IMG/VR virus record: IMGVR_UViG_3300021964_000348
Span: 1-29,393 of that record
Length of the DNA stretch: 29,393 nucleotides
Origin: a virus
Reading direction: 5' to 3' (one strand)
Part shown: in pieces, positions 1 through 15,439 of the stretch
Position numbering within the stretch: position 1 is the first letter of the stretch
How the letters are laid out: the number at the start of each line of letters is the position of its first letter
Notes under the pieces: model-generated
What the model saw: the letters and a program-made list of their open reading frames with translations, nothing else
Database searches by the model: none
What the model was told of the DNA's origin: nothing
Translations under genes and position numbers: made by a program

Positions 1-250
1 CCATAGTGACTGCCATTGCAGGTCCATAACAATTTATAATTTGAGAATCAAAATTAAATCTACCTATGCCTGTTTCAACTTTAGGCAATGATTCGCCGTA
101 GGTCCAACTTTCGCCAATAACCAATAGAATATTTTTCTTTTTTCTTTTTATATGAAATTCAGAGAATTTGGCTTCGTGCTCTACCCAATCAGGTTTAAGA
201 TTTTTGTCATTATAGAAAATTTTTATATCTGTATATTCTTTAAACTCCAT
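1..250 (-). CDS. SGNH/GDSL-hydrolase-like protein, N-terminal part (runs off window edge)
   Basis: An open frame begins with ATG at 250-248 and continues to base 1 with no stop, giving about 83 residues. After a charged N-terminus with a Lys/Arg run comes a hydrophobic strand, NILLVIGESWTYGESLP (about residues 46-62). A beta strand ending in G-E-S-W-T-Y-G resembles block I of SGNH/GDSL hydrolases, where the Ser is the nucleophile. The catalytic Asp/His block would lie outside the window, so activity cannot be confirmed. The start overlaps the end of the radical SAM gene by 11 bp, which suggests translational coupling in the same leftward operon. An esterase or deacetylase acting on a glycan would suit the neighbouring glycosyltransferases, but that is inference. 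A non-enzymatic relative remains possible. Confidence 0.72.
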   Translation of the reverse strand, partial: MEFKEYTDIKIFYNDKNLKPDWVEHEAKFSEFHIKRKKKNILLVIGESWTYGESLPKVETGIGRFNFDSQIINCYGPAMAVTM

Positions 251-1604
251 TACAGTCCTCATAAAATTTTTCTAATTCTGGAAATGTTTTTACAAAATTT
301 GTATTACGTCTTCGATCATATTCAGTAAACCAATTAAAAAAATCTCTCCGACCGACCGTCAATTTTTCAGCAGTATATTCAGTAGTAGCCATGTAATCAA
401 CAACACGTCTAAATCTTTCATATTCCATTGTGCTAAATTTATTTTTATCGATATCGTCAATGTTATCAAAAATAAATTGTAAATGTTTTTTCATATACGG
501 AACAAATTCATCCTTGGGTAATATATTCATATCATATTGTAATGGTTCCTTAAGATAAGGAGTATCAAATCTGATTCGCTGCCATTTAGTTTGATCATCA
601 CTGTTATATCTAACACGCCATTCCAAAATTTTATTAAGAAGTTTATCAAAATTAGTAACTGTTAGAACATTAAAAGTAATCATAAAAGATACAGGTAAAT
701 TTGTTTTTGTTAGATAGGTATCAAAATTCTTTTCCCATAATTCTAAATCCAGTCCTGTTCTAATGTATTCTGCTTGGTGTCCCCAAGTATCTAAACTAGT
801 AAACAGCATGAAACTTTTAATTTTACCTTCGTCTAATAATTTATTAACTTTTTCAGTTAATCTTTCTACTAAAATGGTCTTGATGCCTAAATTACTATTA
901 ATATTAATTTCTAAATTAGGTTTAGGATCCTTATCTAATTCATCAAACAATCTCCATGTGCTTTGCTGTAGTAATGGTTCACCACCTGTAATTCTTAAAA
1001 TTGTAAGTGTCTTTGAAACTTCAGGCCACCATTTCCACCATGCCTTCACATAAGGATTAGTTTCTTCCTCGTAAATTTTTAAATAATCAATATCCTGTCT
1101 ATGATTTTTAACCATATCGTATGGACCAAATTTTTCAATCTCTTTAAAGTAAGCACTTGATGCCTTAGGCATACAATATCCGCATTTAAAATTACACTCG
1201 TTACCGAATGATATTTCTATATACTGTGGATTGACATCTCCCATTGGATCTGCTTTAATTTCTTTATATCGGTCAGGTGTATAAATTGTATAGTTACGCT
1301 CTTTTCGATCAGATATATAATCTTTTCCTAAACATTCAACATTCCAACAATACTGACAGCCACTTGGTTTTTCGCCATGTATCATTTGTAAACGTTCTTG
1401 TTTTTTCTGTGGAGTATTGTGTAAAAGACTCGGATTTTCTTCTAATCCTTCTAATGGAATCTTATGAGGCGTAGGATGATAGCAACTATGAGTTTCACCT
1501 GTTTGTAAGTAGATAGTTGTGTGGTGCCACTTAGCCATGCAGAATGTAGGTGAAATACTATCCATCATCGGTTCATAACTTAGTATTCTATCCTTGTCTT
1601 GCAT
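240..1604 (-). CDS. Radical SAM protein with N-terminal auxiliary Cys region (twitch/SPASM-like)
   Basis: This 454-aa protein carries the radical SAM signature CNFKCGYC (Cys137, Cys141, Cys144), which binds the 4Fe-4S cluster that cleaves S-adenosylmethionine. An RITGGEPLL stretch (204-212) supplies the GGEP SAM-contacting motif. Ahead of the core is a second Cys-rich part: FC22, SC41YHP, GC83QYC86WNVEC91. That pattern resembles the Cys ligands of SPASM or twitch auxiliary clusters, but it sits N-terminal to the core. Phage proteins of this layout are usually named twitch-domain radical SAM proteins; the substrate is unknown. The ATG at 1604 has a GAGGAA ribosome-binding site inside the end of the preceding gene (17 bp overlap). 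Location downstream of glycosyltransferases suggests peptide or sugar modification, unproven. Confidence 0.88.
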   Translation of the reverse strand: MQDKDRILSYEPMMDSISPTFCMAKWHHTTIYLQTGETHSCYHPTPHKIPLEGLEENPSLLHNTPQKKQERLQMIHGEKPSGCQYCWNVECLGKDYISDRKERNYTIYTPDRYKEIKADPMGDVNPQYIEISFGNECNFKCGYCMPKASSAYFKEIEKFGPYDMVKNHRQDIDYLKIYEEETNPYVKAWWKWWPEVSKTLTILRITGGEPLLQQSTWRLFDELDKDPKPNLEININSNLGIKTILVERLTEKVNKLLDEGKIKSFMLFTSLDTWGHQAEYIRTGLDLELWEKNFDTYLTKTNLPVSFMITFNVLTVTNFDKLLNKILEWRVRYNSDDQTKWQRIRFDTPYLKEPLQYDMNILPKDEFVPYMKKHLQFIFDNIDDIDKNKFSTMEYERFRRVVDYMATTEYTAEKLTVGRRDFFNWFTEYDRRRNTNFVKTFPELEKFYEDCNGV

Positions 1605-2631
1605 TAAATTGTTCCTCTAGCCATTTAAAATCATTTATTAACTTAAGATCGGATCCGTCAGAAAGACCAAACTCCATGCCGGCCTTAGCACCATCTAGAG
1701 CATACTTACCAAACTCTCTATCATGTCCTACAGTTGTCCAAATCTCAAGTCTCTTTTTTGTTTCTTCTTCGTTTTGTCTATCAATTGCTCCGCTACTTAA
1801 TTTGACACATTCTCTAAATGCACTTTTCCATGTATTAAACGGATCAGTATTAAAAGCAGTCATGTTTGAAACTGTTTCCATGGCTTTAAAATGTTTACTA
1901 ATGCTAGTTGTCATATCAGTAGTATTTGTATTCATATTAATAGTTAGGTCTCTTGGAAATAGTTTAACACCACCATAGCCATATTGCAAGTCATTTATTG
2001 GGTTTCTACTTCTCCAAACATGGACATGTTTTCTTTCATATACTGGAACATAATAATTAAAGTTAAAATCTTTTTCAATTTCTGCATCAGCATCAACTAT
2101 CCAAAACATTTCAGTGTTAACTTGTTTTGCTGCTTCGATGTGTGCTTGATGGATTCCTTTTATATCTTTTATCCAAATTGCGTTTGGTGCTTTTAATAAT
2201 AATTTTTCATAATTTTTTTCAGCAAATTTTTCTTTATATGAAATGAAAGCAATATCAAAATTTTGAGAGGACGGAGTTGATGCTTTAATCTCTATAGGTT
2301 TTTTGTTTACATAAAATCTGCTTTTAAATTCTCTATCCGAAACAGTTATCTTCTTCGGAAACAGACAGATACCGTCGTATGTATCATTATTAAGGAATAC
2401 ATGAATATAAAAGTCGTCCCATTTGGTTGCTCTATATTTTAACAGGTCAAAATTATCACAAACTTCTAAATCGTCCCATACCACCCAAAACATATTTGTG
2501 AATGATTTATTTTTAAGTATAGAAAAAGAATTACAATTATCTATCTTCTGTGCATTAGGAAATCTTTGCTTAAATTTGCTCCAAGCATTCTCATTGACTT
2601 TGTGTGTGCTAATGAAAAATATATCATACAT
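1588..2631 (-). CDS. GT-A-like (VDAD motif) phage protein with internally duplicated halves
   Basis: This 347-aa protein has a C-terminal half (about 124-347) with a strand ending in FWIVDADAEI (177-185). This DxD-type motif is typical of nucleotide-sugar-binding GT-A folds. It is followed by YGYGGVKLFPRD (217-228) and a helical part including RLEIWTTVG. The next upstream gene encodes a clear paralog with VDADN, YGNGGLKL and RLRMWSTVG at matching places. The N-terminal half (1-120) looks like a degenerate second copy: FWVVWDDLEV (48-57) and GICLFPKK (87-94) parallel FWIVDADAEI and GVKLFPRD, but the DxD is altered. It overlaps the upstream gene by 8 bp and the radical SAM gene by 17 bp. Glycosyltransferase activity is inferred from the motif only; the acceptor is unknown. 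Confidence 0.75.
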   Translation of the reverse strand: MYDIFFISTHKVNENAWSKFKQRFPNAQKIDNCNSFSILKNKSFTNMFWVVWDDLEVCDNFDLLKYRATKWDDFYIHVFLNNDTYDGICLFPKKITVSDREFKSRFYVNKKPIEIKASTPSSQNFDIAFISYKEKFAEKNYEKLLLKAPNAIWIKDIKGIHQAHIEAAKQVNTEMFWIVDADAEIEKDFNFNYYVPVYERKHVHVWRSRNPINDLQYGYGGVKLFPRDLTINMNTNTTDMTTSISKHFKAMETVSNMTAFNTDPFNTWKSAFRECVKLSSGAIDRQNEEETKKRLEIWTTVGHDREFGKYALDGAKAGMEFGLSDGSDLKLINDFKWLEEQFNARQG

Positions 2632-3526
2632 AACGTTGACTAAAATATGTGCTGCCTAAATTGATTGATTCTTCATAAAGATCCATAACATAACGACTCA
2701 TGTGAGGATCTAGATCAGGATAATTGAACCCTAATTGGTCTCTTAATTCACTTCCTAATCGTTTTATTTCTTGTTCGAGACCAAACCCATCCTCGTAATC
2801 TCGACATTGTTCATTATACAGTTCACGCAATGCTTCAAAATCTCTTACCTGCACATGATCCCAATTAGTGCAATTTGTTAAGTATGTTCCTAGTCTTGCA
2901 CCATATATTGCAAACAGTCCATTTTCCACATGACTGCCTACTGTGCTCCACATTCTTAGTCTATGTAAATTATGCCACCAAATTTTATTATTGATCTCTT
3001 GTGCTGGAACTTTTAGACCTTGGTCTAATATCATTTTAACACCTTCACGAAAACCTGCACGCCATGACATAAATGGTGTTGCATTTATCACAGTGTCGCT
3101 ATATGTCTTAGGAAAATTTCTATAACCTGTTTCCCAACAAAAGTCAACCTGAGCTCTTTCACTTTCACTATTTTCATGTGTCTTCATATTCAACACATGA
3201 TCTTTATTCCATAATTTTAATCCGCCATTACCATAACGCAGGCCATTTACTACATTTCTGCCGCACCAACTATATGCTCGTATTTCTTCATTTGACATAT
3301 CTAAATCTAAATCAAAAAATTCAGGATATACTATATTATCTGCATCAACTGTTAACAACCACTCAGTTTCACTTTGCTCTGCTGCTGCTTTATGTGCATG
3401 ATCGCTTCCTTTTACTCCGTGTATGCGTTGTGCCCACGGAACCTTGTTACACAGATCGGCATAATGCAAATCTGCATTAGGTTCGTCATAACTTAAAAAG
3501 AAAACGTCAAACTCTGCTACTTTCAT
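2624..3526 (-). CDS. GT-A-like (VDADN motif) phage protein, paralog of the next gene
   Basis: This is a 300-aa protein. The N-terminus (EFDVFFLSYDEPNADLHY) forms a Rossmann-like first strand. It is followed by RIHGVKGSDHAHKAAAEQS and a hydrophobic strand ending in VDADN (60-64), where Asp61 and Asp63 form a DxD-type motif. YGNGGLKLW, TPFMSWRAGFREGVKM and RLRMWSTVGSHVENGLFA are shared, with substitutions, with the 347-aa product encoded immediately downstream, so the two arose by tandem duplication. The C-terminal 60 residues (QEIKRLGSELRDQLGFNYP and onward) have no partner in the paralog. The ATG overlaps the previous stop as ATGA and the gene ends 8 bp inside the next, both consistent with translational coupling. 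It is likely a glycosyltransferase or a nucleotide-sugar-binding relative. Confidence 0.78.
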   Translation of the reverse strand: MKVAEFDVFFLSYDEPNADLHYADLCNKVPWAQRIHGVKGSDHAHKAAAEQSETEWLLTVDADNIVYPEFFDLDLDMSNEEIRAYSWCGRNVVNGLRYGNGGLKLWNKDHVLNMKTHENSESERAQVDFCWETGYRNFPKTYSDTVINATPFMSWRAGFREGVKMILDQGLKVPAQEINNKIWWHNLHRLRMWSTVGSHVENGLFAIYGARLGTYLTNCTNWDHVQVRDFEALRELYNEQCRDYEDGFGLEQEIKRLGSELRDQLGFNYPDLDPHMSRYVMDLYEESINLGSTYFSQRYV

Positions 3527-4164
3527 ACTTCTTCAACCATATAATTTTTAAATAATCTTTTAGTGTAGATGCTTACGAACTCATTATGGTCAACATCAAA
3601 GGTTACAGATTTTCCTATAAGTTCCTCAATAGATACACTTAATGTGTTATAAACAATATGAGGATCGTTATATGCAGTAATTGTAAAATCTAATTTGGTT
3701 TGTCCATCCCAAAATATTTTTCTCTGTGTTATAGGATGAAACTTTTTATCTTGTTTGTGCGTTCCGCCAAATTCCTCAGATAACTTAACAACCATTTTTC
3801 CTTTTGCTCTATCATAAATGATATAGATATCAGGTTTTTCAATTTCTGACCACTTCTTTTCAATAATTCTGTGAAGAACATCATCAATAGTAAAAAGACT
3901 TTTTGTTTCTATAATTTCTAATTCACCTTGTGAAGGATCTACAAAGCATTTATGAATATTAATTTTACCTGCAATAATATCTTCAGCAATATCACTTTTT
4001 ACACTAATAATATTCTTATACTTTTCTTCATTTACTGATGTTTCCGGTCCGACCGAAAGTAATCTTCCCGAGTCTGCATCAAAGGCTGCGTTATATTTTA
4101 CCTTTTCGTATGTCTGACTAGCAAGCCATTCGTCAAAATCTGGTAGAACTAATTCTTCTGCCAT
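3523..4164 (-). CDS. Hypothetical phage protein, 213 aa, inside the glycosyltransferase cluster
   Basis: I do not recognise a family. The 213-residue product is acidic at its N-terminus (MAEELVLPDFDEWLASQ) and mixed alpha/beta by appearance, with no signal peptide, transmembrane segment, Cys cluster or DxD motif. The middle (IYIIYDRAKGKMVVKLS, about 115-130) and the stretch FWDGQTKLDFTITAYNDPHIVYNTLSV look like beta hairpins, which would fit a structural or adaptor protein as well as an enzyme. It starts inside the end of the upstream glycosyltransferase (16 bp overlap) and ends in an ATGA junction with the VDADN gene, so it is co-translated with them. Context suggests a partner of the glycan or modification enzymes, or a small virion protein carried in the same cluster. 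Confidence 0.75.
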   Translation of the reverse strand: MAEELVLPDFDEWLASQTYEKVKYNAAFDADSGRLLSVGPETSVNEEKYKNIISVKSDIAEDIIAGKINIHKCFVDPSQGELEIIETKSLFTIDDVLHRIIEKKWSEIEKPDIYIIYDRAKGKMVVKLSEEFGGTHKQDKKFHPITQRKIFWDGQTKLDFTITAYNDPHIVYNTLSVSIEELIGKSVTFDVDHNEFVSIYTKRLFKNYMVEEV

Positions 4165-4991
4165 GCTATTTCCTCCAATATGTTTACTGTTTCTGATGTA
4201 ACTTTGTTCTTTTCAACATAATGAACTATGTCATGTTGTTGATAGTTACCAATTTTTAAATTTGCACCTCGATCAAAATAAAATCCAACATGATCAGTGA
4301 CTGAATCTGCTGGCCACGGCCAATTTTGTATCATTCCTTTTAAATGAACCACTCGAGGAAATTCTAAATCATAAGCAATTTCGTTAGTTATGTCTAAAAT
4401 TTTTGCTGCAAGTGCAAATGCTTCATCTGTTCCGACTATCTTTGGTGTATATCTTGTTAAAAAATTGTTAGAAAATTCAACTGGATTCTTTATAATTGCT
4501 CTTTGTAGGGTAAAGAATTCTTTTGATAAGTTACTATCTTTAACAAAAAATGTATAAAAGGAATATAAATTAGGTAATTCATTGGCTGTAAAACATTTTC
4601 TATAATAATCATCGGTAACTATTTCACCTCTATAGGTATAAGACTTGTTTGCAATGTATAATTCACAATTTTCTACAAAATAATCAATCCAATGGCTGTA
4701 ATCTCTCATAAACAACATATCAGCGTCTAGGCATACAGTATAATCAAAAGGACTAAGTTGATCCATAAATGATCTACCATCCCAGTGTTCTTCTTGATCC
4801 CATTCTATAACATGATCAAACACCCAGGTCGATGTATAATCTTTAATTTTTTTCTTATCGTTGATTACAAGTGCTACTTGATCGTAACCTGGTTTCTGTG
4901 TATTCTTAATACTTAAAGCCAGTGCATATGCGAGTTTAGAATAATTAGTTTCTTGATTCTCAGATACAACAATTAAATAACCAAAGTTCAT
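4149..4991 (-). CDS. Glycosyltransferase, GT-A fold (GT8-like)
   Basis: This 280-aa protein has the layout of a small GT-A glycosyltransferase. The N-terminal strand GYLIVVSENQETNYSKLAYA is followed by SIKNTQ and VALVINDK. The strand-loop FDYTVCLDADMLFM contains the metal and nucleotide-sugar-binding DxD at Asp89 and Asp91. TPKIVGTDEAFALAA (about 182-196) resembles the D.E acceptor region, and VVHLKGMIQNWPW (214-226) recalls the H..G...W end motif of GT8 enzymes such as glycogenin and LPS galactosyltransferases. It is paralogous in layout to the 285-aa gene directly upstream, which it joins by an ATGA overlap. The donor sugar and acceptor cannot be told. It could decorate virion proteins, phage DNA or host surface polymer. 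Confidence 0.82.
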   Translation of the reverse strand: MNFGYLIVVSENQETNYSKLAYALALSIKNTQKPGYDQVALVINDKKKIKDYTSTWVFDHVIEWDQEEHWDGRSFMDQLSPFDYTVCLDADMLFMRDYSHWIDYFVENCELYIANKSYTYRGEIVTDDYYRKCFTANELPNLYSFYTFFVKDSNLSKEFFTLQRAIIKNPVEFSNNFLTRYTPKIVGTDEAFALAAKILDITNEIAYDLEFPRVVHLKGMIQNWPWPADSVTDHVGFYFDRGANLKIGNYQQHDIVHYVEKNKVTSETVNILEEIAWQKN

Positions 4992-5845
4992 GCTAACTCC
5001 ATCAATGCATTACTATTTCTAAGAATACTCTGCTTATTCATAACATGCAGATCATTACTGATCTTAGCAGCACAATAATTTCCATCTGATCTAGGAGAAG
5101 CAAGAACTATTAAATTATTATTATCTATATGACTGAGATAATCTTTGTCGGTAATCGATAATATGTCAGGAAGTGTATATTCGTTATCTGTCTCGAACCC
5201 ATACATAATATGTTTAGCAATACTAAAAGAGATATCGTTGCGATAAATTCTATCATCAAATCTAAAAAGGTTAGCAAATGATTTATAATTTTCTCTAATA
5301 TGTTCTACAAGATCAAAAAAAGTTTTTGTATTTTCGTTTTTTGTAAACATCACAGTTGTTGCCCAAAGCAATTTTATACCTGTGTCTGAAATATATTTGT
5401 CGTGGTATCCTGTTCTGTCATCACCAAATATGTCATTATACTTTCCTGAAATCATTAAATCACAATCAACATTCCAATAATTGTTTAATGTGTTAGACAT
5501 TATTAAATAGTCACTATCAATTAGAAGAGTTCTGTCATATGGTGTTAAGTCCCAAACATTACTTCGATTAGAATTATTAAATAGTGCAGGAGTTTTAGTT
5601 TGACCATCATAAAAATTTCTCATATTAATTTCTTCTGGTCTTTTTGTTATAATAATTCGATCAAAGATATCTGCTGCCGTCTTAAAAATTTCAGATTCTT
5701 TCATCCAATCAATAGTTGATGGATCAGTTATTAAACTAACAGGAACTGATAAATTCTTATTTGCTAGTTTTGCTGCAATAATTGCTAACTTAGCATAATC
5801 ATTTTGCCTATTATTGTGTGCAAAAATTACGATACCTTTTTTCAT
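4988..5845 (-). CDS. Glycosyltransferase-like protein, GT-A fold
   Basis: A 285-aa product begins KKGIVIFAHNNRQNDYAKLAIIAAKLA, the first beta-alpha unit of a GT-A domain, followed by VPVSLITD. The motif TLLIDSDYLIM carries a DxD-type Asp110-Ser-Asp112 after the strand, as in its downstream neighbour's CLDADMLF. The region RNDISFSIAKHIMYGF (about 207-222) is the counterpart of the neighbour's GTDEAFALAAKI. There is no C-terminal HLKG-type block; the end reads ISNDLHVMNKQS, in which His is the only candidate metal ligand. Its last four bases (ATGA) overlap the start of the next gene, and one base separates it from the 116-aa gene upstream. It is probably a functional glycosyltransferase, though the weaker C-terminal motif leaves room for a non-catalytic paralog. 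Confidence 0.78.
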   Translation of the reverse strand: MKKGIVIFAHNNRQNDYAKLAIIAAKLANKNLSVPVSLITDPSTIDWMKESEIFKTAADIFDRIIITKRPEEINMRNFYDGQTKTPALFNNSNRSNVWDLTPYDRTLLIDSDYLIMSNTLNNYWNVDCDLMISGKYNDIFGDDRTGYHDKYISDTGIKLLWATTVMFTKNENTKTFFDLVEHIRENYKSFANLFRFDDRIYRNDISFSIAKHIMYGFETDNEYTLPDILSITDKDYLSHIDNNNLIVLASPRSDGNYCAAKISNDLHVMNKQSILRNSNALMELA

Positions 5846-5846
5846 T

Positions 5847-6197
5847 TTAGGATTCCAACAGTTTTTCTACTGATCGACTCTTTTTTAAATCTAGATATTG
5901 TTCGTAATACTCGTTAGTTGCTGTAAAATACCTATCAAAAATTTCTTCTCTAAATGACAATAGGTCTTGAATTAAGATGGGATTTTCATTTACATCTAAT
6001 ATCACTACGTTTTCGGATCTATCCTTGTAGATAAGCATTTCTACAAAATTTAGCAATTCCCTATTAATTTTGAAAATGCCACCGTTAATACCGTAGGTTA
6101 ATTTGGCGTCGATCTTTTCCTTAAGAGATTTTCTTTGGATAGAAAATGTTTGTCTATAGTTAGAAAAATCAAGTGCTTTTTTGAACTCTTCCTGCAT
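5847..6197 (-). CDS. Conserved-type phage hypothetical protein, 116 aa
   Basis: This short protein is rich in charged residues and probably mostly helical at its two ends, with a central beta part. It starts MQEEFKKALDFSNYRQTFS and contains INGGIFKINRELLNFVEML and VVILDVNENPILIQDLLSF, closing with EYYEQYLDLKKSRSVEKLLES. I recall similar small proteins near structural genes of marine T4-like phages, but no function is known to me. The ATG at 6197 is preceded by GGAGGT only three bases upstream. The gene is first in the left cassette, with a GATAAATA late-promoter-like site 28 bases before the ATG, so it may set expression of the whole glycosyltransferase/radical SAM block. One base separates it from the next gene. 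Confidence 0.78.
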   Translation of the reverse strand: MQEEFKKALDFSNYRQTFSIQRKSLKEKIDAKLTYGINGGIFKINRELLNFVEMLIYKDRSENVVILDVNENPILIQDLLSFREEIFDRYFTATNEYYEQYLDLKKSRSVEKLLES

Positions 6198-6225: not shown

Positions 6226-6233
6226 TATTTATC
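6226..6233 (-). promoter_or_regulatory. Candidate late promoter (GATAAATA)
   Basis: Minus-strand GATAAATA matches the T4 late-promoter consensus TATAAATA at 7 of 8 bases. It lies in the 60-bp gap between the 332-aa structural gene and the 116-aa gene, 28 bases ahead of the ATG, leaving room for a leader with a GGAGGT ribosome-binding site. The same octamer recurs in the next intergenic gap. A+T-rich DNA yields chance matches, so this rests on position as well as sequence. Confidence 0.5.
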
Positions 6234-6257: not shown

Positions 6258-7256
6258 TTATGGTGTAGGAGTTATTGAACCTATTGTTACTGTTGGTGAT
6301 TCAACTGTAAAGTTACCCGATCCTGGTGGTTCCAAAACACCGGTAGGTTCTGTAGTAATTACAGTAAGAGACATAGTTCCATCAACGGCATCAGGTCCAA
6401 AACCTCCTGGACGAACTGGCGTTCCTGTTTCTGTAGGACCACCCTGAGCAACGTGATCGTCTATCCACTGAACGTAAAATTCCATTGTTCTAGATATGCC
6501 TGCACTGTTATCTGTAACACCAGGACTATCAAATGTTCTCGCATCAATTATCCAACTGTTTAAGGCATAAGGTGACGATGCTGTTACACTACTCCAGGTT
6601 TGCCTAACATTGCTTAATCTAAAATAGTTTGTTCCGTCGTTTGGATTAACTCCTGTTCCTGGGTTATTTCCTCCAAACTGTCTAGATCCTGCCGTGCTTA
6701 AAAGACTTGTCCAGCTCGTGTTTTGATTTGTAGAAGAACCTCCAGATCTTGAACTTGTAAAATCAATGCTACCGCCAGCATTGAAAAAATGTCTAGCATT
6801 TTCTGATGTTGTAAATGATACTGTAACTGTTGTATAAAGGGCATCGGTCCATTCAGCGCCATACACGCCGGGCCAACTTTCTTGAACTGTTCCATGGTTA
6901 ATTGTTTGACGTTGTCCTGAAACAGCAAGTGATCGTCTATTATTATCAATACTGGTTACAACATTTGCCCACCAATCAATAGGTTCGTCAGATACGCTAT
7001 ATCTAATACTTTTACCCAATGTTTGTTCGTCAACATTTGCAGGATTGCCATTAAAAAGATGCTTGTAAGCATTAATGATATCATATCTTAAAGCCGCATA
7101 CTCATTTACTGTTACAACATTTGATAAATCAACCTGTGAACTTAGAACAGGTTGGCCATAGCCATACTGTCCACTTCCACTTCCAAGAATCGCAGAGATA
7201 TCCTGCTGTATAGCATTATAGTCAACTGCTTTAATTTTTTGATTAATACCTGCCAT
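6258..7256 (-). CDS. Virion structural protein (paralog of the 297-aa gene upstream)
   Basis: This 332-aa protein is rich in Ser, Thr, Gly and Asn, as in phage tail or fibre proteins. It starts AGINQKIKAVDYNAIQQDISAILG and contains YGYGQPV, EYAALRYDIINAY, ENARHFFNAGGSIDF (about 152-166), TSWTSLLSTAG and VQWIDDHVAQGG. Each of these blocks has a counterpart in the 297-aa product encoded upstream, so the pair is a tandem duplication. The C-terminal part has a Pro/Gly-rich linker (GGPTETGTPVRPGGFGPDAVDG) and ends GSITPTP. ATG 7256 has a GAGGT site upstream and a late-promoter-like octamer 15 bases before it. No enzymatic motif is visible. A role as a tail or baseplate accessory protein is inferred from composition and neighbours. 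Confidence 0.83.
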   Translation of the reverse strand: MAGINQKIKAVDYNAIQQDISAILGSGSGQYGYGQPVLSSQVDLSNVVTVNEYAALRYDIINAYKHLFNGNPANVDEQTLGKSIRYSVSDEPIDWWANVVTSIDNNRRSLAVSGQRQTINHGTVQESWPGVYGAEWTDALYTTVTVSFTTSENARHFFNAGGSIDFTSSRSGGSSTNQNTSWTSLLSTAGSRQFGGNNPGTGVNPNDGTNYFRLSNVRQTWSSVTASSPYALNSWIIDARTFDSPGVTDNSAGISRTMEFYVQWIDDHVAQGGPTETGTPVRPGGFGPDAVDGTMSLTVITTEPTGVLEPPGSGNFTVESPTVTIGSITPTP

Positions 7257-7301: not shown

Positions 7302-8195
7302 TTAAGTGAGTGTAATGCTGGCTAGTGAATATGTTGGTGATGTAATATCCCAAGCCGTATTAAAGGGAGATAGAACCGTAGTTCCTTTAATTTCACTCAC
7401 GAATATTTCCAATTTACCGTCTACTAAATCTCCTGGTGCTGGTGCACCTAAATCAACATAGTTATCAATAAGTTCTAATGATATTGTAAGAACTGTTGCA
7501 GTTCCTAACGAATTATCTGGAACATCAACTTTTGCTTTTAAACCGTAATAGTTAGCACTATATGGAGTGCTGCTTGATTTTTGAGAATAGGTTTGAAAAC
7601 TATTAGTGAGAGAATAATAGTTAATTGGGTTTTCTGGCCTTGCTGAAAAATCAATAATTACTTCGTCGATTAAATTTTTCCATGCGTTAGACTGTTGAGT
7701 CGGCGATAAGGCATTAGGTGTAAAATTTGTTGTTATTCTTATTTTTCCGCCTGAATTAAAAAAATGTCTAGCATCATCAGCATCAGTCCAGGTAACTGTT
7801 AATTCAGTAGTAGCACTTGAACTCCAGGTGCTTGATGTATCGTCTGACACTTTGGGTGTTGATCCAAATTGACCTACAGCAATATCAAATCTGTTATTAG
7901 TAATCACATCAGAATAATAATCATAATTTTTGAGTGCATCGCCAGCATCATCTGTAATTACAGCATTTAACGGAATATCAGTAAGTGGAGGAGAAGCATT
8001 TCCTGTTTGATGAAGAATGCAATTATAGATATCAAATCTTAGTGCATCCCATTGGCCTTTTTCAATAACTTGCCCTGCTGTAACTGAATTGCTATAGACA
8101 GTTTGTCCGTATCCTTTTGATCCGGCACCGTTGCCTAATATGTTTACAACTTTTGTTCTGATGCCATTGATATCACTAGCAAGAATATCAGCCAT
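7302..8195 (-). CDS. Virion structural protein (paralog of the 332-aa gene downstream)
   Basis: This 297-aa product has the same block order as its downstream neighbour: ADILASDINGIRTKVVNILG, KGYGQTVY, QWDALRFDIYNCI, DDARHFFNSGGKIRI (about 138-152), AWKNLIDEVIIDF, SSTPYSANYYGL and LELIDNYVDLGAP. At DNA level the ARHFF blocks share the run AAAAAATGTCTAGCAT (plus-strand view), so the duplication is not very old or the block is constrained. The ATG overlaps the preceding fibre stop by one base (TAATG), a standard coupling arrangement. It ends with tandem stops TAA TAA. It lacks the Pro/Gly linker of its paralog. A virion role is inferred from composition and from placement among fibre genes; the exact position in the particle is unknown. 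Confidence 0.83.
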   Translation of the reverse strand: MADILASDINGIRTKVVNILGNGAGSKGYGQTVYSNSVTAGQVIEKGQWDALRFDIYNCILHQTGNASPPLTDIPLNAVITDDAGDALKNYDYYSDVITNNRFDIAVGQFGSTPKVSDDTSSTWSSSATTELTVTWTDADDARHFFNSGGKIRITTNFTPNALSPTQQSNAWKNLIDEVIIDFSARPENPINYYSLTNSFQTYSQKSSSTPYSANYYGLKAKVDVPDNSLGTATVLTISLELIDNYVDLGAPAPGDLVDGKLEIFVSEIKGTTVLSPFNTAWDITSPTYSLASITLT

Positions 8196-9955
8196 TATAA
8201 AATCACCGCTTCAATCATTTTAGTTCCTTCAACATCACTACCTTCTAAAGCAATAGCAAATACGTTTGGTGAATCATCTGATCTTACTGCCGCGCCCTCG
8301 TCGCCTGCTACAAGTCTATCACCTTTTGCTACCGTTCCTGTTACTTTAACAGGAACTCTTCCTTTAAGTGCAACATATTGTCCGCCTGATAAATGTGAAT
8401 TCATCATAAACGCAGGACTTTGGGATATTACACCTATTGCTTTATCTCCGGATGATGAAGCAGTTACTTCTCTGAACCCTCCAACGGAAATTACTGTGCC
8501 ATAATCATAATCTTTATCTGTTAGATATTTTTCTGCAAGGTCAGCATATCTCGCTGCCGTTGCTGTTCCATCAAAAAGGTTAGCACGTAGGTCTCCTGAT
8601 GAAGTTCTTGCTGCAATTGAACTATTCGCCGGAATAGTTTTTGCAGTTTTATAAATCGGATCCGTATCAACTGCACCGTCGTCAATTTTAACTCTATCTG
8701 TTTTATCAGATATTCCAATAAACTGAGTAGCAGTGATGTTACCTGAAGAATTTCTAATCGGAATCGACGCAACTCCACCTGGCACTGTTTCAGATGCCGC
8801 TAAACTGTTAAGCAAACTTGAATTAGATGCATTACCAGTTAAGTCTCCGCTCACGTTACCAAATAGTGTTCCTCTTAGTGTTGCGCCTACATATCCAATT
8901 TCTTCAGCAGCAGCATCGATCATCTTCTGTGCTGAATTAGAAAATAAATCTCCAGTGTGTGATCCGGTAGTATTTCCAGTTACATTACCTGTTAGGTCTC
9001 CATAATAGTCTGCTGCATACACATCTTTCCAACGAAGACTAGTTTCGCCTAAATCAAACTCATTGTTTAATCCTGGTCTAAAACCAGTAATTGTAAATTC
9101 ACCTGCTTTATTTCTAGTAACACCTGCGTTGACTAAGAAACTAATTGGTTCTCCAGTGATACTTTCAAATACAATGTCGTCACCATTTTCAATAATTACT
9201 TTAAGATCATTTTGATCTCCAAGCGTATAACCGTTATCATCAAATCTAATAGTCGAAGTAAATGCTACTTCGCCTTTTTGTAAGAAGTTATCTGCTGATA
9301 CTCCTCCAAGTTTTAAACTGTTTGAAGTTGTTCCCCAGTAAACAAAGTCATCACTTGTAATACCGTTAGAATCTGTATTAACTAAAGTAAACCCTTTCTT
9401 AACTAGGGTAAAACCTTCAATAGGATTAACAGTAGAATTTAAAGTAAATGCTGTTTGCGAAATTATTCCAACTGTTCGACCACCTGCAATCATTTTTAAG
9501 ATACTATGATTTGTGTTTCCGGTATCTTTAACAACTTGTGCAACAACACCACTAGTTCCAAGATCTGGTGATGCTTCAGGACCAACTAATACAAATTCTG
9601 CGCCTGACCATGCATATAATTGTTTTGCGGCAGTATCCCACCACATATCTCCAGTTCCAAGACCGCCGGGTGCAGTATCACTTACTTCAGCACCTGATGC
9701 AGATTTAAACTTAGTTCCATCGTAAAACTTTAATTTTTTGTTGCCACTGTCATACCAAATTTGGCCTTCTATTACTTTTGGGGGACTGGTTGTGTTTGAA
9801 AAGTTTTCTAATAGATGCAGAAAATTTTCATTTTGAACTTCGCCATAGCCAGCATAGTTTTTACCTACAAATCGTAAATCTGTAGTTGTATCGATAGTTC
9901 CGTCGGCTACTGACGTTAAAAAAGTTCCGTTAAATTTATCTACTTGGTATGCCAT
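8195..9955 (-). CDS. Tail-fibre-like protein with GYGE N-module and YADLAEKY C-terminal domain
   Basis: This 586-aa fibre paralog starts with the module shared by four genes here (about 1-130): NYAGYGEVQNENFLHLLENF, VIEGQIWYDSGNKKLKFYDG, GDMWWDTAAKQLYAWSG and LVGPEASPD. Such modules probably attach the fibre or build its shaft. The middle has Gly/Asn/Thr repeats (GDLTGNVTGNTTGSHTGDL, GNVSGDLTGNAS) typical of trimeric beta-helical fibres. The C-terminal 115 residues (about 470-586) begin ARYADLAEKYLTDKDYDYG and continue with GVISQSPAFMMNS and VALKGRVPVKVTGTVAKGDRLV. I know this C-terminal type from phage fibre tips; it may be related to intramolecular chaperone or peptidase G2-like domains, but that is unsure. 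A site AGGAAAAACGCAAAATG and an AATAAATA element precede the start. Confidence 0.88.
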   Translation of the reverse strand: MAYQVDKFNGTFLTSVADGTIDTTTDLRFVGKNYAGYGEVQNENFLHLLENFSNTTSPPKVIEGQIWYDSGNKKLKFYDGTKFKSASGAEVSDTAPGGLGTGDMWWDTAAKQLYAWSGAEFVLVGPEASPDLGTSGVVAQVVKDTGNTNHSILKMIAGGRTVGIISQTAFTLNSTVNPIEGFTLVKKGFTLVNTDSNGITSDDFVYWGTTSNSLKLGGVSADNFLQKGEVAFTSTIRFDDNGYTLGDQNDLKVIIENGDDIVFESITGEPISFLVNAGVTRNKAGEFTITGFRPGLNNEFDLGETSLRWKDVYAADYYGDLTGNVTGNTTGSHTGDLFSNSAQKMIDAAAEEIGYVGATLRGTLFGNVSGDLTGNASNSSLLNSLAASETVPGGVASIPIRNSSGNITATQFIGISDKTDRVKIDDGAVDTDPIYKTAKTIPANSSIAARTSSGDLRANLFDGTATAARYADLAEKYLTDKDYDYGTVISVGGFREVTASSSGDKAIGVISQSPAFMMNSHLSGGQYVALKGRVPVKVTGTVAKGDRLVAGDEGAAVRSDDSPNVFAIALEGSDVEGTKMIEAVIL

Positions 9956-9979
9956 TTTGCGTTTTTCCTAGTTCACTTG

Positions 9980-9987
9980 TATTTATT
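9980..9987 (-). promoter_or_regulatory. Candidate late promoter (AATAAATA)
   Basis: Minus-strand CGAATAAATA sits in the 37-bp gap between the 154-aa gene and the 586-aa fibre gene, 24 bases ahead of the fibre ATG, with AGGA between them. It has one mismatch to the T4 late consensus TATAAATA. Confidence 0.48.
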
Positions 9988-9992
9988 CGTTT

Positions 9993-10457
9993 TTACTTCA
10001 TAAGCATCAAGCATGCCCAATTTCTTTCAACACCGGCTGTGCTAATAGAGTGCGTATTTTTAAGAGAAAATTCCACTCCTTGCCCTCTCTGTAGCGTTAC
10101 TACTTGACCATCTATAGTAATACTGTTATTATCTGTAAGACTGTAAGCAATTATAGTTCCTGCTACAGTTTCGCCATCCCAGGCATTCATTTCATCTAAA
10201 AAACCTGTATTTGCAGGAAATTTAATAAAATATCCAATGACTGCTTTGTTTATGTCTTCTTCTGCAAAATAAGATTTGAAGGCTGATCTTTGTGTTCTAT
10301 TCCAACCCTTCCATTTAGAAACTTCATACTTGCTTAGGTTTCCGTAGTTATTAGCACCTAATCTAATAACGCCTGATACAAAATCAACATTAGATTTTAA
10401 TGCATCTAGTGCTGTTAAATTTTCCGAACTTAATGCTGTTTTTAAAATGTGTGCCAT
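9993..10457 (-). CDS. Hypothetical protein, 154 aa, possible cupin-like beta fold
   Basis: I do not recognise a named family. The N-terminal 75 residues are helical and include GVIRLGANNYGNLSKYEVSKWKGWNRTQRSAFKSYF. The rest looks like alternating beta strands: AGTIIAYSLTDNNSITIDGQVVTLQRGQGVEFSLKN, then THSISTAGVERNWACLMLMK. A strand, turn, GQVVTLQRGQGVEF and final NTHSI arrangement recalls the end of small cupin or jelly-roll barrels, but the HxH metal motif of metal-binding cupins is absent. It follows the 2OG oxygenase gene after a 5-bp gap and precedes a late-promoter-like site, so it closes a three-gene group between two fibre genes. A role in the virion or with the oxygenase is possible; neither is shown. 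Confidence 0.72.
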   Translation of the reverse strand: MAHILKTALSSENLTALDALKSNVDFVSGVIRLGANNYGNLSKYEVSKWKGWNRTQRSAFKSYFAEEDINKAVIGYFIKFPANTGFLDEMNAWDGETVAGTIIAYSLTDNNSITIDGQVVTLQRGQGVEFSLKNTHSISTAGVERNWACLMLMK

Positions 10458-10462
10458 AATAC

Positions 10463-10933
10463 CTACTCGTAAAGATATACCAATGAATATCTTTTGTTGT
10501 TTACTGGTGCAACACTATGCACCGGCCCTATTCCGTCAATACAAATTCCTTGACCAACAGAATCTTTAATAAATTCGTTGTCTTCGATCATCACACCATC
10601 GTTGCTATCTTGTAATGAAATAACTAAATTTTTTCTATAATGATCAACGTCTCTATGCTTACCTAGGTAATCACCTACGTTGTATCTATTTATTGCTATT
10701 TCCGCAAGCCTGTGTTCTTCAAAATTAGGTGCAATTGATTTTAAAAATTCAATCATATGTTTTGGCATCTGTGAATGTCCACAGAAATCATATGCACACG
10801 ACGAATTCTCTACCTGTCTAGGTGGAGTAAGTTGTGATCTTCTAACCCACCTTGCTTCTTCAAGAGTTTCGGCATATTGCTTTGCTCTTAGTGCAGTAAC
10901 TTTATCAAGGTATTTAGATATCACGTATGTCAT
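10463..10933 (-). CDS. 2-oxoglutarate/Fe(II)-dependent dioxygenase
   Basis: A 156-aa product with the double-stranded beta-helix signature of 2OG-Fe(II) oxygenases. INRYNVGDYLGKHRD supplies His93 and Asp95 of the HxD pair, IGPVHSVAPV supplies the distal His139, and KRYSLVYLYE provides Arg148, which would bind 2-oxoglutarate. These enzymes hydroxylate protein, nucleic acid or small-molecule substrates; several marine phages carry them near tail genes, target unknown. The frame is open back to 11077, but a well-placed AGGAG lies 7 bases before ATG 10933, and upstream residues merely shadow the preceding gene, so I start at MTYVISKYL. This gives a 20-bp overlap. Location between fibre genes suggests, without proof, hydroxylation of a fibre protein. 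Confidence 0.86.
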   Translation of the reverse strand: MTYVISKYLDKVTALRAKQYAETLEEARWVRRSQLTPPRQVENSSCAYDFCGHSQMPKHMIEFLKSIAPNFEEHRLAEIAINRYNVGDYLGKHRDVDHYRKNLVISLQDSNDGVMIEDNEFIKDSVGQGICIDGIGPVHSVAPVNNKRYSLVYLYE

Positions 10934-11420
10934 CCCCATACTCCTGTATAGCACCCTCATATTTTTCTGCAATATCTGCATCAATATCTTCAGTGCTTTT
11001 ATATTCAACCTGTGAATTATTTTTAAAGTATTCTTTTCTAATGCCATTAGCACGTCTGACTTCAACAATAAAGTCATTCATTTCTTTCAATTCTTCTACT
11101 TCAATGCCAGCATTGTCTGCTAATCTTTCAATTGCTGAACCTAGTATGCTCAATTGATTTTCTAAAGGATATTTGTCTGTAATTCTATTTCTTGCAAGTG
11201 TATTGAGAGCATCCTCTGTCATTAAAAGAGTTGCATTCCTGTCATAAATTTCGTAACTATCGTAAGTTCCTCTTACGTTTTCATTATCTAAATCTATTTC
11301 AATTTCTCTATACAAATAAAGATCGTGATTTAAAAGTGACTGATCTTCAACCATTCCTAAAACAGTTGTAAACTTATTGTTTAGTTTGTTGAATTGCGCA
11401 AGTGCTGTTTGTCTATTCAT
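10914..11420 (-). CDS. Hypothetical protein, 168 aa
   Basis: The product is highly charged and predicted by eye to be largely helical: MNRQTALAQFNKLNNKFTT, then YLYREIEIDLDNENVRGTYDSYEIYDRN, then long helices such as QLSILGSAIERLADNAG and EVEELKEMNDFIVEVRRAN, with an acidic tail EYGDDIRDI. I recognise no family and see no catalytic motif, Cys pair or membrane segment. The frame extends nine codons upstream to a GTG at 11447 inside the preceding fibre gene, but the internal ATG at 11420 lies just after that fibre's stop codon and gives a more natural start, with AGGA about 11 bases upstream. It overlaps the oxygenase gene by 20 bp. It could be a chaperone or assembly protein for adjacent fibres; that is only a guess. 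Confidence 0.75.
   Translation of the reverse strand: MNRQTALAQFNKLNNKFTTVLGMVEDQSLLNHDLYLYREIEIDLDNENVRGTYDSYEIYDRNATLLMTEDALNTLARNRITDKYPLENQLSILGSAIERLADNAGIEVEELKEMNDFIVEVRRANGIRKEYFKNNSQVEYKSTEDIDADIAEKYEGAIQEYGDDIRDI
10941..10945 (-). promoter_or_regulatory. Ribosome-binding site AGGAG deciding the oxygenase start
   Basis: AGGAG on the minus strand is 7 bases before ATG 10933 and only 1 base before ATG 10939. This spacing favours the start at 10933 over the longer frame beginning at 11077. Confidence 0.55.
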
Positions 11421-11425
11421 ACCAA

Positions 11426-11433
11426 TATTTATC
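11426..11433 (-). promoter_or_regulatory. Weak late-promoter-like octamer overlapping a stop codon (GATAAATA)
   Basis: The same GATAAATA octamer as in two gaps further left spans the TAA stop of the 697-aa fibre gene. The next ATG is only 5 bases downstream, which would make that transcript nearly leaderless. It may be a real initiation site for the following genes, or a chance product of the stop codon context. Confidence 0.28.
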
Positions 11434-13522
11434 CTACCGTTAACCACGTGCCATTAGCCTGCTTCTGAACAGTCTGTTTGTATCTATCATAAACGGTAGC
11501 ATTACCACCGTTACCGTTTCTTGGTGCGTTGTAAACTCTTTCATTCCAGAACGCAACCTTTGTTCCTGTAGGAAAACTCGCATACGTGGCCTGCACATTG
11601 GCTAGTGTTGTTGCACCTGCCCAATAAGGATTTATTCCTTGTGTTGCAGCATCCACATACTGTTTAGTTGCTGCGTGTAAATTTGCTGTAGGGTTAGAAT
11701 GTAGCGTTAAGAATCCAGTCATTGTATCGCCGGATTTTAAAACGTTATTTGTTGCAGTTGTAGCAGTTGTAGCATTACCTGTTAAGTTTGCTGTAATTGT
11801 TCCTGCACTAAAGTTTCCACTTGCATCTCTTGCCACTACCTTGCTTGCAGTATTTGCACTTGTTGCATCCACATCAAATTGTCTCGATGCTAACCCGTCA
11901 TAACTTGTTCCATTAAGATAAGCACCTGGTATGAGATCTGCTACTGCCGGAGACCCCCAATAAGGCGCACCTCCAGTGCCGCCGGTATGCAGTATTTCAC
12001 CTGCGGTTCCTGCAGGAAGCAACGCAGTTGCTCCAGACGCAGTCTGGTAAGCAAAGGAGCCTGCGGCTCCGCCCGCGATATTTGCAGCGGTTGTTGCTAG
12101 AGTGGCTGTATCAGCGTTTCCTTGTAAACTACCTATGAAAGTATTAGCATGGACATTATCCCATTCTAAATTAGATTTTCCTAAATCAACATCTCCATTA
12201 GTTGTTGGAACCAGTGCACCATTGGCTCCTGTTCCTGCCGTTACCGAAACATCAGGAGATATAATTTTTATAGAAGAAGTATCGGTTCCATCATCTACTG
12301 TAATTGTTAATTGTCTAGTGGCTGTTAAACTGGAGTTTGTTCCTGATGACGCAATGGTTAAATTACTGTTTACTAAAATATTTCCAACTACTTCTAAACT
12401 TATGAGGTTGCCTACCTGCTGTAAATTACTGTTTATAACATTTGTTGCTAGAGATATCCCTGTCAGTGTATTTGCCGCTGCTGGAACTGTAATGTCATCC
12501 TGTCCATCAAACGCAACACCGTTGATATTTCTCGCTGTTCTCAATTTTGTTGCACTGAAAGCATTACCACTTAGGCTAGGTCCAACAAATGAATTTGCCT
12601 GTATTACGTCAAATCTTGAAGTTCCTGTTGTGGCAGTTACATTACCGTATAATTCTCCTGAAAGATTAGCAGTGATTAGTCCTGCTGCAAATCCTCCGGC
12701 TGCATTTCTTGAAACAATTGTTCCTATGCTGTTTGCCGAAGTTGCATTAACGTCCCATGTAATATCGCTGCTACCATTAAATGAACTTCCTGTAATGTAA
12801 TCTCCCGGTCTCAACGGTTCTGTTGTTGAAGAAGTTATCGTGATGTCTCTGGTTCCATCAAATCCGGTTCCATTAATTTTTCTAGTTGTTTGTAATTCTG
12901 ATGCCGTGTCAGCATTTCCGTGTAGGTTACCCTTAATAAATGTATTGCTGTTTAGTGTAATTCCTGCATCAAGTTGATCAAATCCTGCTCTCGTGTTGGT
13001 AGATCCTAATCTAAATGGAACTCCTGTAACAATGCCAACGACCGTGCCATCGACCGTTAGTTCTATCGCGGCATGATTAATTGCTGTGTCCGATACCAAG
13101 GTTGTGCTTCTTGCTCTTGTCGTATCAAACCCTTCAGCCGTTTCTGGACCTATGAATACCCAACCTGAACCATTATAGGTATGCAATGTATTGTGTGGTG
13201 TCTTTAACCAAAATGCGCCTGTTGGAGGATCAACTGGTGGGGTTCCGGACAGTTTTGCCGCTCCAACCTCTACCCACTTATCACCGTCCCAAACTTTGAT
13301 CACATTTACATTAGTGTCAAACCATAATTGGCCGGCTATTGGTGTTGATGGGGCAGTGTTGTGTGCAAAATTTTCTAATAAAAACAGAAAGTTTTCATTC
13401 TGTGCTTCACCATATCCAATATAATTTCTACCAACAAGTGTAATACTGCTGTCATTGTTTACGGTAGCATCCTGCAACGTTGTAAACGCTGTTCCGTCTG
13501 TCTTATTAATTACGTATGCCAT
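11429..13522 (-). CDS. Long tail-fibre-like protein with internal repeats
   Basis: This 697-aa fibre paralog opens with the shared N-module (about 1-130): NYIGYGEAQNENFLFLLENF, PIAGQLWFDTNVNVIKVWDG, TGAFWLKTPHNTLHTYNG, FIGPE. The long middle is made of Gly/Ala/Thr/Asn-rich beta repeats with recurring TARNINGVAFDG-type units and LTGNATTATTATN-type spacers. One unit of about 55 residues (PGDYITGSSFNG...GLITANLSGELYGN) recurs near the end (PGAYLNGTSYDG...GTITANLTGNAT). HAATKQYVDAATQG (about 616-629) is the linker usually found just before a fibre head in T4-like phages. The final 70 residues (YWAGATTLANVQATYASFPTG onward) form the probable tip. AGGAG lies 7 bases before the ATG. It is likely a distal fibre subunit, possibly for host recognition. 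Confidence 0.87.
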   Translation of the reverse strand: MAYVINKTDGTAFTTLQDATVNNDSSITLVGRNYIGYGEAQNENFLFLLENFAHNTAPSTPIAGQLWFDTNVNVIKVWDGDKWVEVGAAKLSGTPPVDPPTGAFWLKTPHNTLHTYNGSGWVFIGPETAEGFDTTRARSTTLVSDTAINHAAIELTVDGTVVGIVTGVPFRLGSTNTRAGFDQLDAGITLNSNTFIKGNLHGNADTASELQTTRKINGTGFDGTRDITITSSTTEPLRPGDYITGSSFNGSSDITWDVNATSANSIGTIVSRNAAGGFAAGLITANLSGELYGNVTATTGTSRFDVIQANSFVGPSLSGNAFSATKLRTARNINGVAFDGQDDITVPAAANTLTGISLATNVINSNLQQVGNLISLEVVGNILVNSNLTIASSGTNSSLTATRQLTITVDDGTDTSSIKIISPDVSVTAGTGANGALVPTTNGDVDLGKSNLEWDNVHANTFIGSLQGNADTATLATTAANIAGGAAGSFAYQTASGATALLPAGTAGEILHTGGTGGAPYWGSPAVADLIPGAYLNGTSYDGLASRQFDVDATSANTASKVVARDASGNFSAGTITANLTGNATTATTATNNVLKSGDTMTGFLTLHSNPTANLHAATKQYVDAATQGINPYWAGATTLANVQATYASFPTGTKVAFWNERVYNAPRNGNGGNATVYDRYKQTVQKQANGTWLTVG

Positions 13523-13540
13523 CTAACGCTCCTAGTTTCC

Positions 13541-15436: not shown

Positions 15437-15439
15437 CTA

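Follow-up and report, generated by a model that had tools for sequence, protein, structure and literature searches.

What is a chain of glycosyltransferase-like and radical S-adenosylmethionine (SAM) genes doing directly behind the fibre genes of a giant aquatic phage? The locus that raises this question lies on the IMG/VR record IMGVR_UViG_3300021964_000348, and the whole 29,393-base stretch analysed here (the window) represents part of a larger T4-superfamily jumbo phage without a close cultured relative, with its main genes all on the minus strand. The module (positions 2-6197, minus strand) comprises eight genes in the order g116, GT285, GT280, g213, VDAD1, VDAD2, the radical SAM gene rSAM and an SGNH-like gene cut off by the contig end. 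Its glycosyltransferase core is fixed and linked to the virion genes, whereas the radical SAM, SGNH, 2-oxoglutarate (2OG) oxygenase and sugar-nucleotide enzymes behind it form a tail that varies; the module is tentatively read as a late-expressed virion glycosylation unit whose likeliest targets would be distal fibre proteins.

The conservation of gene order shows that the arrangement is more than chance. VDAD1 and GT280 were the baits for collecting loci, each search contributing its best 80; dereplication at 95% VDAD1 identity left 87 loci, over which the order is nearly invariant. g116 is followed by GT285 in 75/75 cases, GT285 by GT280 in 83/84, GT280 by g213 in 82/86, g213 by VDAD1 in 83/83, VDAD1 by VDAD2 in 81/84 and VDAD2 by rSAM in 74/75, while the gene preceding g116 is of the fib332/fib297 type in 64 of 66. 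VDAD1 relatives also occur on five bacterial or archaeal genome contigs; those of metagenome-assembled genomes (MAGs) of Neomarinimicrobiota, Bdellovibrionales and Pacearchaeota have the order fibT-g116-GT285-GT280-(g213-like)-VDAD1 at a VDAD1 identity of 45-51%, with rSAM placed directly after VDAD1, without VDAD2 between them, in the first two. Because the order is kept both in the 87 loci and on MAG contigs of this divergence, the module core is old and stable. L162, L163, L164 and L166 are jumbo-phage-like contigs carrying the module, that is, phage sequence binned in cellular genomes.

Downstream of the core, the tail varies: the number of rSAM copies ranges from one to four, with copies on the opposite strand in some cases, and SGNH-like, 2OG-oxygenase, sugar-nucleotide dehydrogenase and dTDP-glucose 4,6-dehydratase-type genes are present according to lineage. 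An earlier note on this DNA, made from its sequence, had described a single six-gene system and had named scattering of the genes among relatives as grounds for abandoning it. No scattering was seen, and the six-gene system is replaced by an invariant core (fibre-type gene, g116, GT285, GT280, g213, VDAD1, VDAD2) with a variable tail behind it. The open reading frames named in that note are indeed present on the minus strand and chained by overlaps, and g116 and g213 are two module genes that it had missed. In the window, a gap of 1 nucleotide (nt) separates GT285 from g116, whereas the remaining neighbours overlap (GT280/GT285 by 4 nt, g213/GT280 by 16, VDAD1/g213 by 4, VDAD2/VDAD1 by 8, rSAM/VDAD2 by 17 and the SGNH fragment/rSAM by 23); across relatives, the reading frames of neighbouring module genes overlap in 76-100% of pairs.

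The placement of a short motif points to late expression. Of 64 unique regions upstream of g116 in relatives, 52 contain the heptamer ATAAATA 32-38 nt ahead of the start, following G, A or another base, compared with 0/427 unique upstream regions (90 nt) of other module genes and a background of 0.014 per 90 nt. [N]ATAAATA is found shortly before the first gene and nowhere inside the unit, in the conserved form GATAAATA; the exact T4 form TATAAATA was rejected as the promoter motif and is absent from the window. NATAAATA is found also before fib332 (as GATAAATA) and fib586 (as AATAAATA). Such a placement is typical of a T4-type late promoter with which a separate operon begins. An early role in host takeover is rejected because of the late motif and the position behind the fibre genes.

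The genes that precede the module encode proteins of a proven virion type. In the minus-strand order, a giant structural protein (3633 amino acids, aa) is followed by g242, three long fibre proteins, a 2OG-oxygenase-like gene, g154, a further fibre (586 aa), fib297 (297 aa) and fib332 (332 aa), and then by the module. In Pseudomonas phage PA5oct, the homologues of fib297, g242 and the giant structural protein are marked in the record as detected by electrospray ionization tandem mass spectrometry (ESI-MS/MS), as is the fibre beside them. The PA5oct structural operon ends at the fib297 homologue, and this phage is without the module: GT280/GT285 and VDAD1 profiles found nothing genome-wide, and g116, g213 and rSAM profiles found nothing at the end of the structural operon. 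A relative contig of 280 kb (G001, the contig of locus L104) holds the whole locus together with a T4-type portal, and its identity to the window is 72% for GT280, 69% for VDAD1, 69% for g116, 77-43% for g242 and the fibres, and lowest, at 40%, for rSAM; the first three module genes are thus conserved to a degree like that of the structural genes. Over 31 loci, the divergence of GT280 tracks that of the adjacent fibres (rho 0.60-0.62), that of rSAM less so (0.21-0.32). Both the late-promoter-like site before one coupled chain and the position of that chain directly downstream of fibre genes, as first described, are upheld, by the motif counts and by the PA5oct homologue, respectively.

The core encodes two pairs of paralogues that are predicted to be glycosyltransferases of the GT-A type. 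GT280 and GT285 are related to each other (hhalign E 7.5e-11), and VDAD1 is paralogous to the C-terminal part of VDAD2 (E 4e-38), whereas no sequence similarity was found between the two pairs. The DxD motif for metal and nucleotide-sugar binding is kept in 88/88 VDAD1, 83/83 GT280 and all GT285 sequences and is present in VDAD2 as well. None of the four proteins matched a curated Pfam or NCBIfam family, for which reason no named glycosyltransferase family is claimed; no module protein except rSAM gave a meaningful match to these collections, and sequence-profile searches of the PDB yielded nothing usable apart from MoaA for rSAM. An AlphaFold model of VDAD1 has a GT-A-type Rossmann-like fold over residues 1-150. 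Its top PDB match by Foldseek (2p73/2p6w, E 6.7e-5) is an enzyme of the virus PBCV-1 titled as a major-capsid glycosylation enzyme, and its BFVD matches are mainly viral glycosyltransferases. This PBCV-1 glycosyltransferase, A064R (PDB 2p6w/2p72/2p73), shares the GT-A fold with VDAD1 and is a viral enzyme of capsid glycosylation; however, it belongs to a eukaryotic virus, and only about 130 residues align, at 18% identity, in what is a structural match. The VDAD paralogues are best read as two further GT-A glycosyltransferases beside GT280 and GT285. VDAD2, of about 350 aa in the window, has 537-555 aa with an added VDAD-type region in L072, L077, L096, L104, L124 and L143. For g213, fold comparison gave a best Z of 5.1, which is not significant and reflects a common beta sandwich. 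No membrane-span-like stretch was found in any module protein.

The rSAM protein clearly belongs to NCBIfam NF033640 (319.8 bits against a cut-off of 170, over model positions 1-398 of 398), although it scores below the Pfam Radical_SAM cut-off. Its CxxxCxxC motif lies at C137/C141/C144 and is accompanied by C22, C41, C83 and C86, all of them invariant in 15 relatives. The SGNH-like gene matched no Pfam or NCBIfam model; its full-length homologues share three conserved blocks, GESWxYGE, a GNxN-like one and, at the C-terminus, HP..xxH, and the copy in the window is a 3'-open fragment. Of the earlier gene assignments, the radical SAM protein and both pairs (two GT-A-like proteins and two VDAD-type paralogs) are corroborated, whereas the SGNH-like label, with which the blocks of full-length relatives would agree, finds no match among the family models and stays a putative one. 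Vibrio phage K566 (L161), a cultured marine jumbo phage, has a cluster of several genes akin to the window rSAM and is a possible laboratory model.

Taken as a virion glycosylation unit, the module would operate as follows. One T4-type late promoter would drive a translationally coupled chain, as the observed motif and overlaps suggest, and four soluble GT-A glycosyltransferases in two paralogue pairs, whose DxD motifs are observed, would build a short glycan. The acceptor would most likely be a simultaneously produced protein of the distal fibre or baseplate tip, of the fib332/fib297 type, and g116 and g213 would accompany either this acceptor or the enzymes. Enzymes encoded downstream (the twitch radical SAM protein, SGNH-like acyl hydrolases, 2OG oxygenases and sugar-nucleotide enzymes) would then tailor the sugar or the protein into a lineage-specific decoration, with altered fibre adhesion, stability or recognition as the presumed effect. 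To our knowledge, few cases of phage protein glycosylation have been described, and the role of many phage radical SAM genes is an open question. If this account is correct, some of the commonest aquatic jumbo phages bring with them a complete, conserved fibre-glycosylation operon; with only four glycosyltransferases and two partners, and a candidate acceptor next to them, so compact a unit opens both fibre glycosylation and the radical SAM role to testing.

Several points weigh against this account. Enzyme activity, sugar, acceptor and biological effect are all inferred steps, and soluble GT-A enzymes would serve equally well for extending lipid-linked glycans of the host surface. The VDAD1 model is of moderate confidence (pLDDT, the predicted local distance difference test, 77.5), and a second aligner placed it as close to IspD/MobA nucleotidyltransferases, which are of the same Rossmann type (Z 10-11), as to glycosyltransferases (Z about 9.7); because these values are similar, a glycosyltransferase is the better, though not the sole, reading of the VDAD1 model. 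GT280 and GT285 are predicted to be GT-A-like from their invariant DxD and sequence rather than from a structural model. Moreover, since VDAD1 and GT280 served as bait and the best 80 hits per search were kept, solitary or strongly diverged copies are under-represented. A Rhodobacteraceae MAG contig (L165:7992-9299) encodes a lone VDAD1 homologue of 435 aa that is not part of a phage module, possibly a cellular relative.

The main alternative, possible though on the whole unlikely, is that the operon acts late in infection on a surface glycan of the host (O-chain or capsule), which would keep progeny from being caught on debris and competing phages from adsorbing. Such a role has been proposed for glycosyltransferases of the host recognition cluster of pelagimyophages (PMC7029224), and the UDP-glucose/GDP-mannose dehydrogenase and dTDP-glucose 4,6-dehydratase types of the tail, like its SGNH-like enzymes, are typical of O-chain pathways. 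However, the module holds no membrane protein, flippase or polymerase; the late promoter, the fixed linkage to fibres in very divergent phages and the two small partners outside enzyme families are also unlike a swap-in gene, although neither argument is decisive. The earlier note had left virion proteins and surface glycans side by side as late targets: the timing agrees with the late motif and the fibre linkage, and the sequence is compatible with either acceptor.

It is improbable that radical SAM peptide modification of fibre or companion proteins is the key chemistry, with the glycosyltransferase-like proteins secondary. In agreement with such a role, radical SAM genes follow the core in 74 of 75 relatives, and the cultured phages Atu_ph07 and Phosso hold radical SAM/SPASM genes resembling peptide maturases in the matching slot. 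Nevertheless, the window rSAM belongs to a twitch family rather than to the SPASM peptide-maturase type, the window fibre proteins have 0-1 cysteines each and are without a core-peptide-like tail, and the glycosyltransferase core is better conserved than rSAM. More improbable still is the suggestion that the glycosyltransferase-like proteins are former enzymes now serving as structural or sugar-binding virion parts, which would fit their strict linkage with structural genes and small partners and is opposed by the retention of DxD counted above. That the enzymes glycosylate bases of the phage's DNA, like the glucosylation of T4-type phages, is scarcely credible here. Base glycosylation is a frequent role of phage glycosyltransferases (discussed in PMC12619734), but it is at odds with late expression behind fibres and with a module lacking a base-hydroxymethylating partner, and sequence searches of Pfam, NCBIfam and PDB showed no likeness to the known families of DNA glucosyltransferases.

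Compared with known systems, virion glycosylation by such a module has partial precedents. A literature search for an operon of this composition returned only two reports on aquatic phages that bear on it. In pelagimyophages, glycosyltransferases and radical SAM cassettes lie by the tail fibres of T4-like aquatic phages (PMC7029224, Zaragoza-Solas et al. 2020); that cluster is a large, non-syntenic island between VrlC and gp14, whereas the present module has a fixed order and one late promoter, and its profiles found nothing in pelagimyophage HTVC008M. The aquatic jumbo 'moraphages' are described as having four putative glycosyltransferase orthogroups in their core (PMC12619734, Perez-Hernandez et al. 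2025) and are alike in size, aquatic origin and number of core glycosyltransferases. These orthogroups could be the same four genes, a comparison made by description only; the sections consulted of that report give no operon, gene order, promoter or radical SAM linkage. Mycobacteriophage Che8 (Freeman et al. 2023, as cited in PMC12619734) likewise has phage-encoded glycosyltransferases tied to virion protein glycosylation, but it differs in phage type and gene organisation and the structural match is weak (Foldseek E 1.2e-3). The locus had been put forward as the best candidate for an undescribed system, and its novelty is lowered by the pelagimyophage clusters and by the moraphage core. Already known are the rSAM family name (NF033640) and clusters beside phage fibre genes that combine glycosyltransferases with radical SAM genes; what is new is a defined, conserved and ordered single-promoter unit. 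The NF033640 member is here fixed behind a glycosyltransferase core.

The carriers are a widespread, uncultured group of giant bacterial viruses of lakes and oceans. The VDAD1 profile matches at least 597 places in IMG/VR contigs, where the core proteins are encoded at hundreds of places, yet VDAD1, VDAD2, GT280, GT285 and g116 had no tblastn match among 50,697 cultured-phage records. When module profiles were compared with HTVC008M, P-SSM2, S-PM2, Phosso, Atu_ph07, GAP32 and Vibrio K566, only rSAM matched, and only in Vibrio K566; two partial matches (E 0.057 and 0.0096) were taken as chance. The giant protein and g242 are related to counterparts in Rak2-like and Atu_ph07-like jumbo phages of the T4 superfamily.

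In Atu_ph07 and Phosso, the genes for the giant baseplate protein and the g242 homologue and that for a single fibre lie ahead of the matching slot, which is occupied by another chained cassette. It contains a cupin-like gene, several radical SAM/SPASM genes and a protein of about 300 aa (L159:23424-31073 in Atu_ph07; L158:22665-30814 in Phosso), the last with a conserved Cys/His-rich C-terminus, [FY]CH[ST]SCHASCH[NS]SRSRR. This cassette looks like a radical SAM peptide-modification system that would act on a phage protein, and it suggests a general use of the slot behind baseplate and fibre genes for virion protein maturation. A more specific proposal, which is doubtful, is that the slot is a dedicated adhesin-maturation locus, filled either by a glycosyltransferase core with radical SAM tailoring or, in the Atu_ph07/Phosso branch, by radical SAM peptide maturases and a core-peptide-like virion protein, radical chemistry making unusual residues or sugars on adhesins.

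Table 1. Positions in the window of the module genes, the promoter motif and the adjoining fibre genes
Feature	Coordinates	Strand	Remarks
T4-type late-promoter motif GATAAATA	6226..6233	-	read 6233-6226; 36 nt before g116 start; sole site within 90 nt upstream of any module gene
g116, small conserved protein	5847..6197	-	first operon gene; then GT285 in 75/75 dereplicated relatives
GT285, predicted GT-A-like glycosyltransferase	4988..5845	-	GT280 paralogue; D-x-D in all relatives
GT280, predicted GT-A-like glycosyltransferase	4149..4991	-	LDADM motif; weak phrog_1903 match
g213, mostly beta protein, possible companion or virion protein	3523..4164	-	homologues: uncultured phage proteins only
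VDAD1, predicted GT-A-fold glycosyltransferase	2624..3526	-	VDADN invariant
VDAD2, VDAD1 paralogue	1588..2631	-	extended at the N-terminus; some relatives have a double-domain form
rSAM, N-terminal-twitch radical SAM enzyme, NF033640	240..1604	-	CxxxCxxC and conserved cysteines
SGNH-hydrolase-like gene, 5' part	2..262	-	3'-open, ends at contig edge
fib332, distal fibre/tip-type virion protein, directly before module	6258..7256	-	Ser+Thr 22%; candidate acceptor (presumed)
fib297, fib332 paralogue	7302..8195	-	homologue PA5oct YP_010678854.1, listed as ESI-MS/MS-detected
fib586, fibre protein (586 aa)	8195..9955	-	N-terminal region common to other fibres

Among the neighbouring genes, the fibres of 586, 697, 631 and 718 aa (8195-17596, minus strand) have a homologous N-terminal region, as if docking on a common site. 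The gene between the fibres at 10463-11077 (minus strand) bears the PHROG label 'DNA endonuclease' (phrog_2297) and has a sub-threshold match to the Pfam 2OG-Fe(II) oxygenase family (E 5e-5) and an HxD...H pattern, so that it is more likely to be an oxygenase. Elsewhere on G001, the genes at 88747-90270, 142638-144332 and 147657-149297 look by eye like tryptophan halogenases and a carbamoyltransferase.

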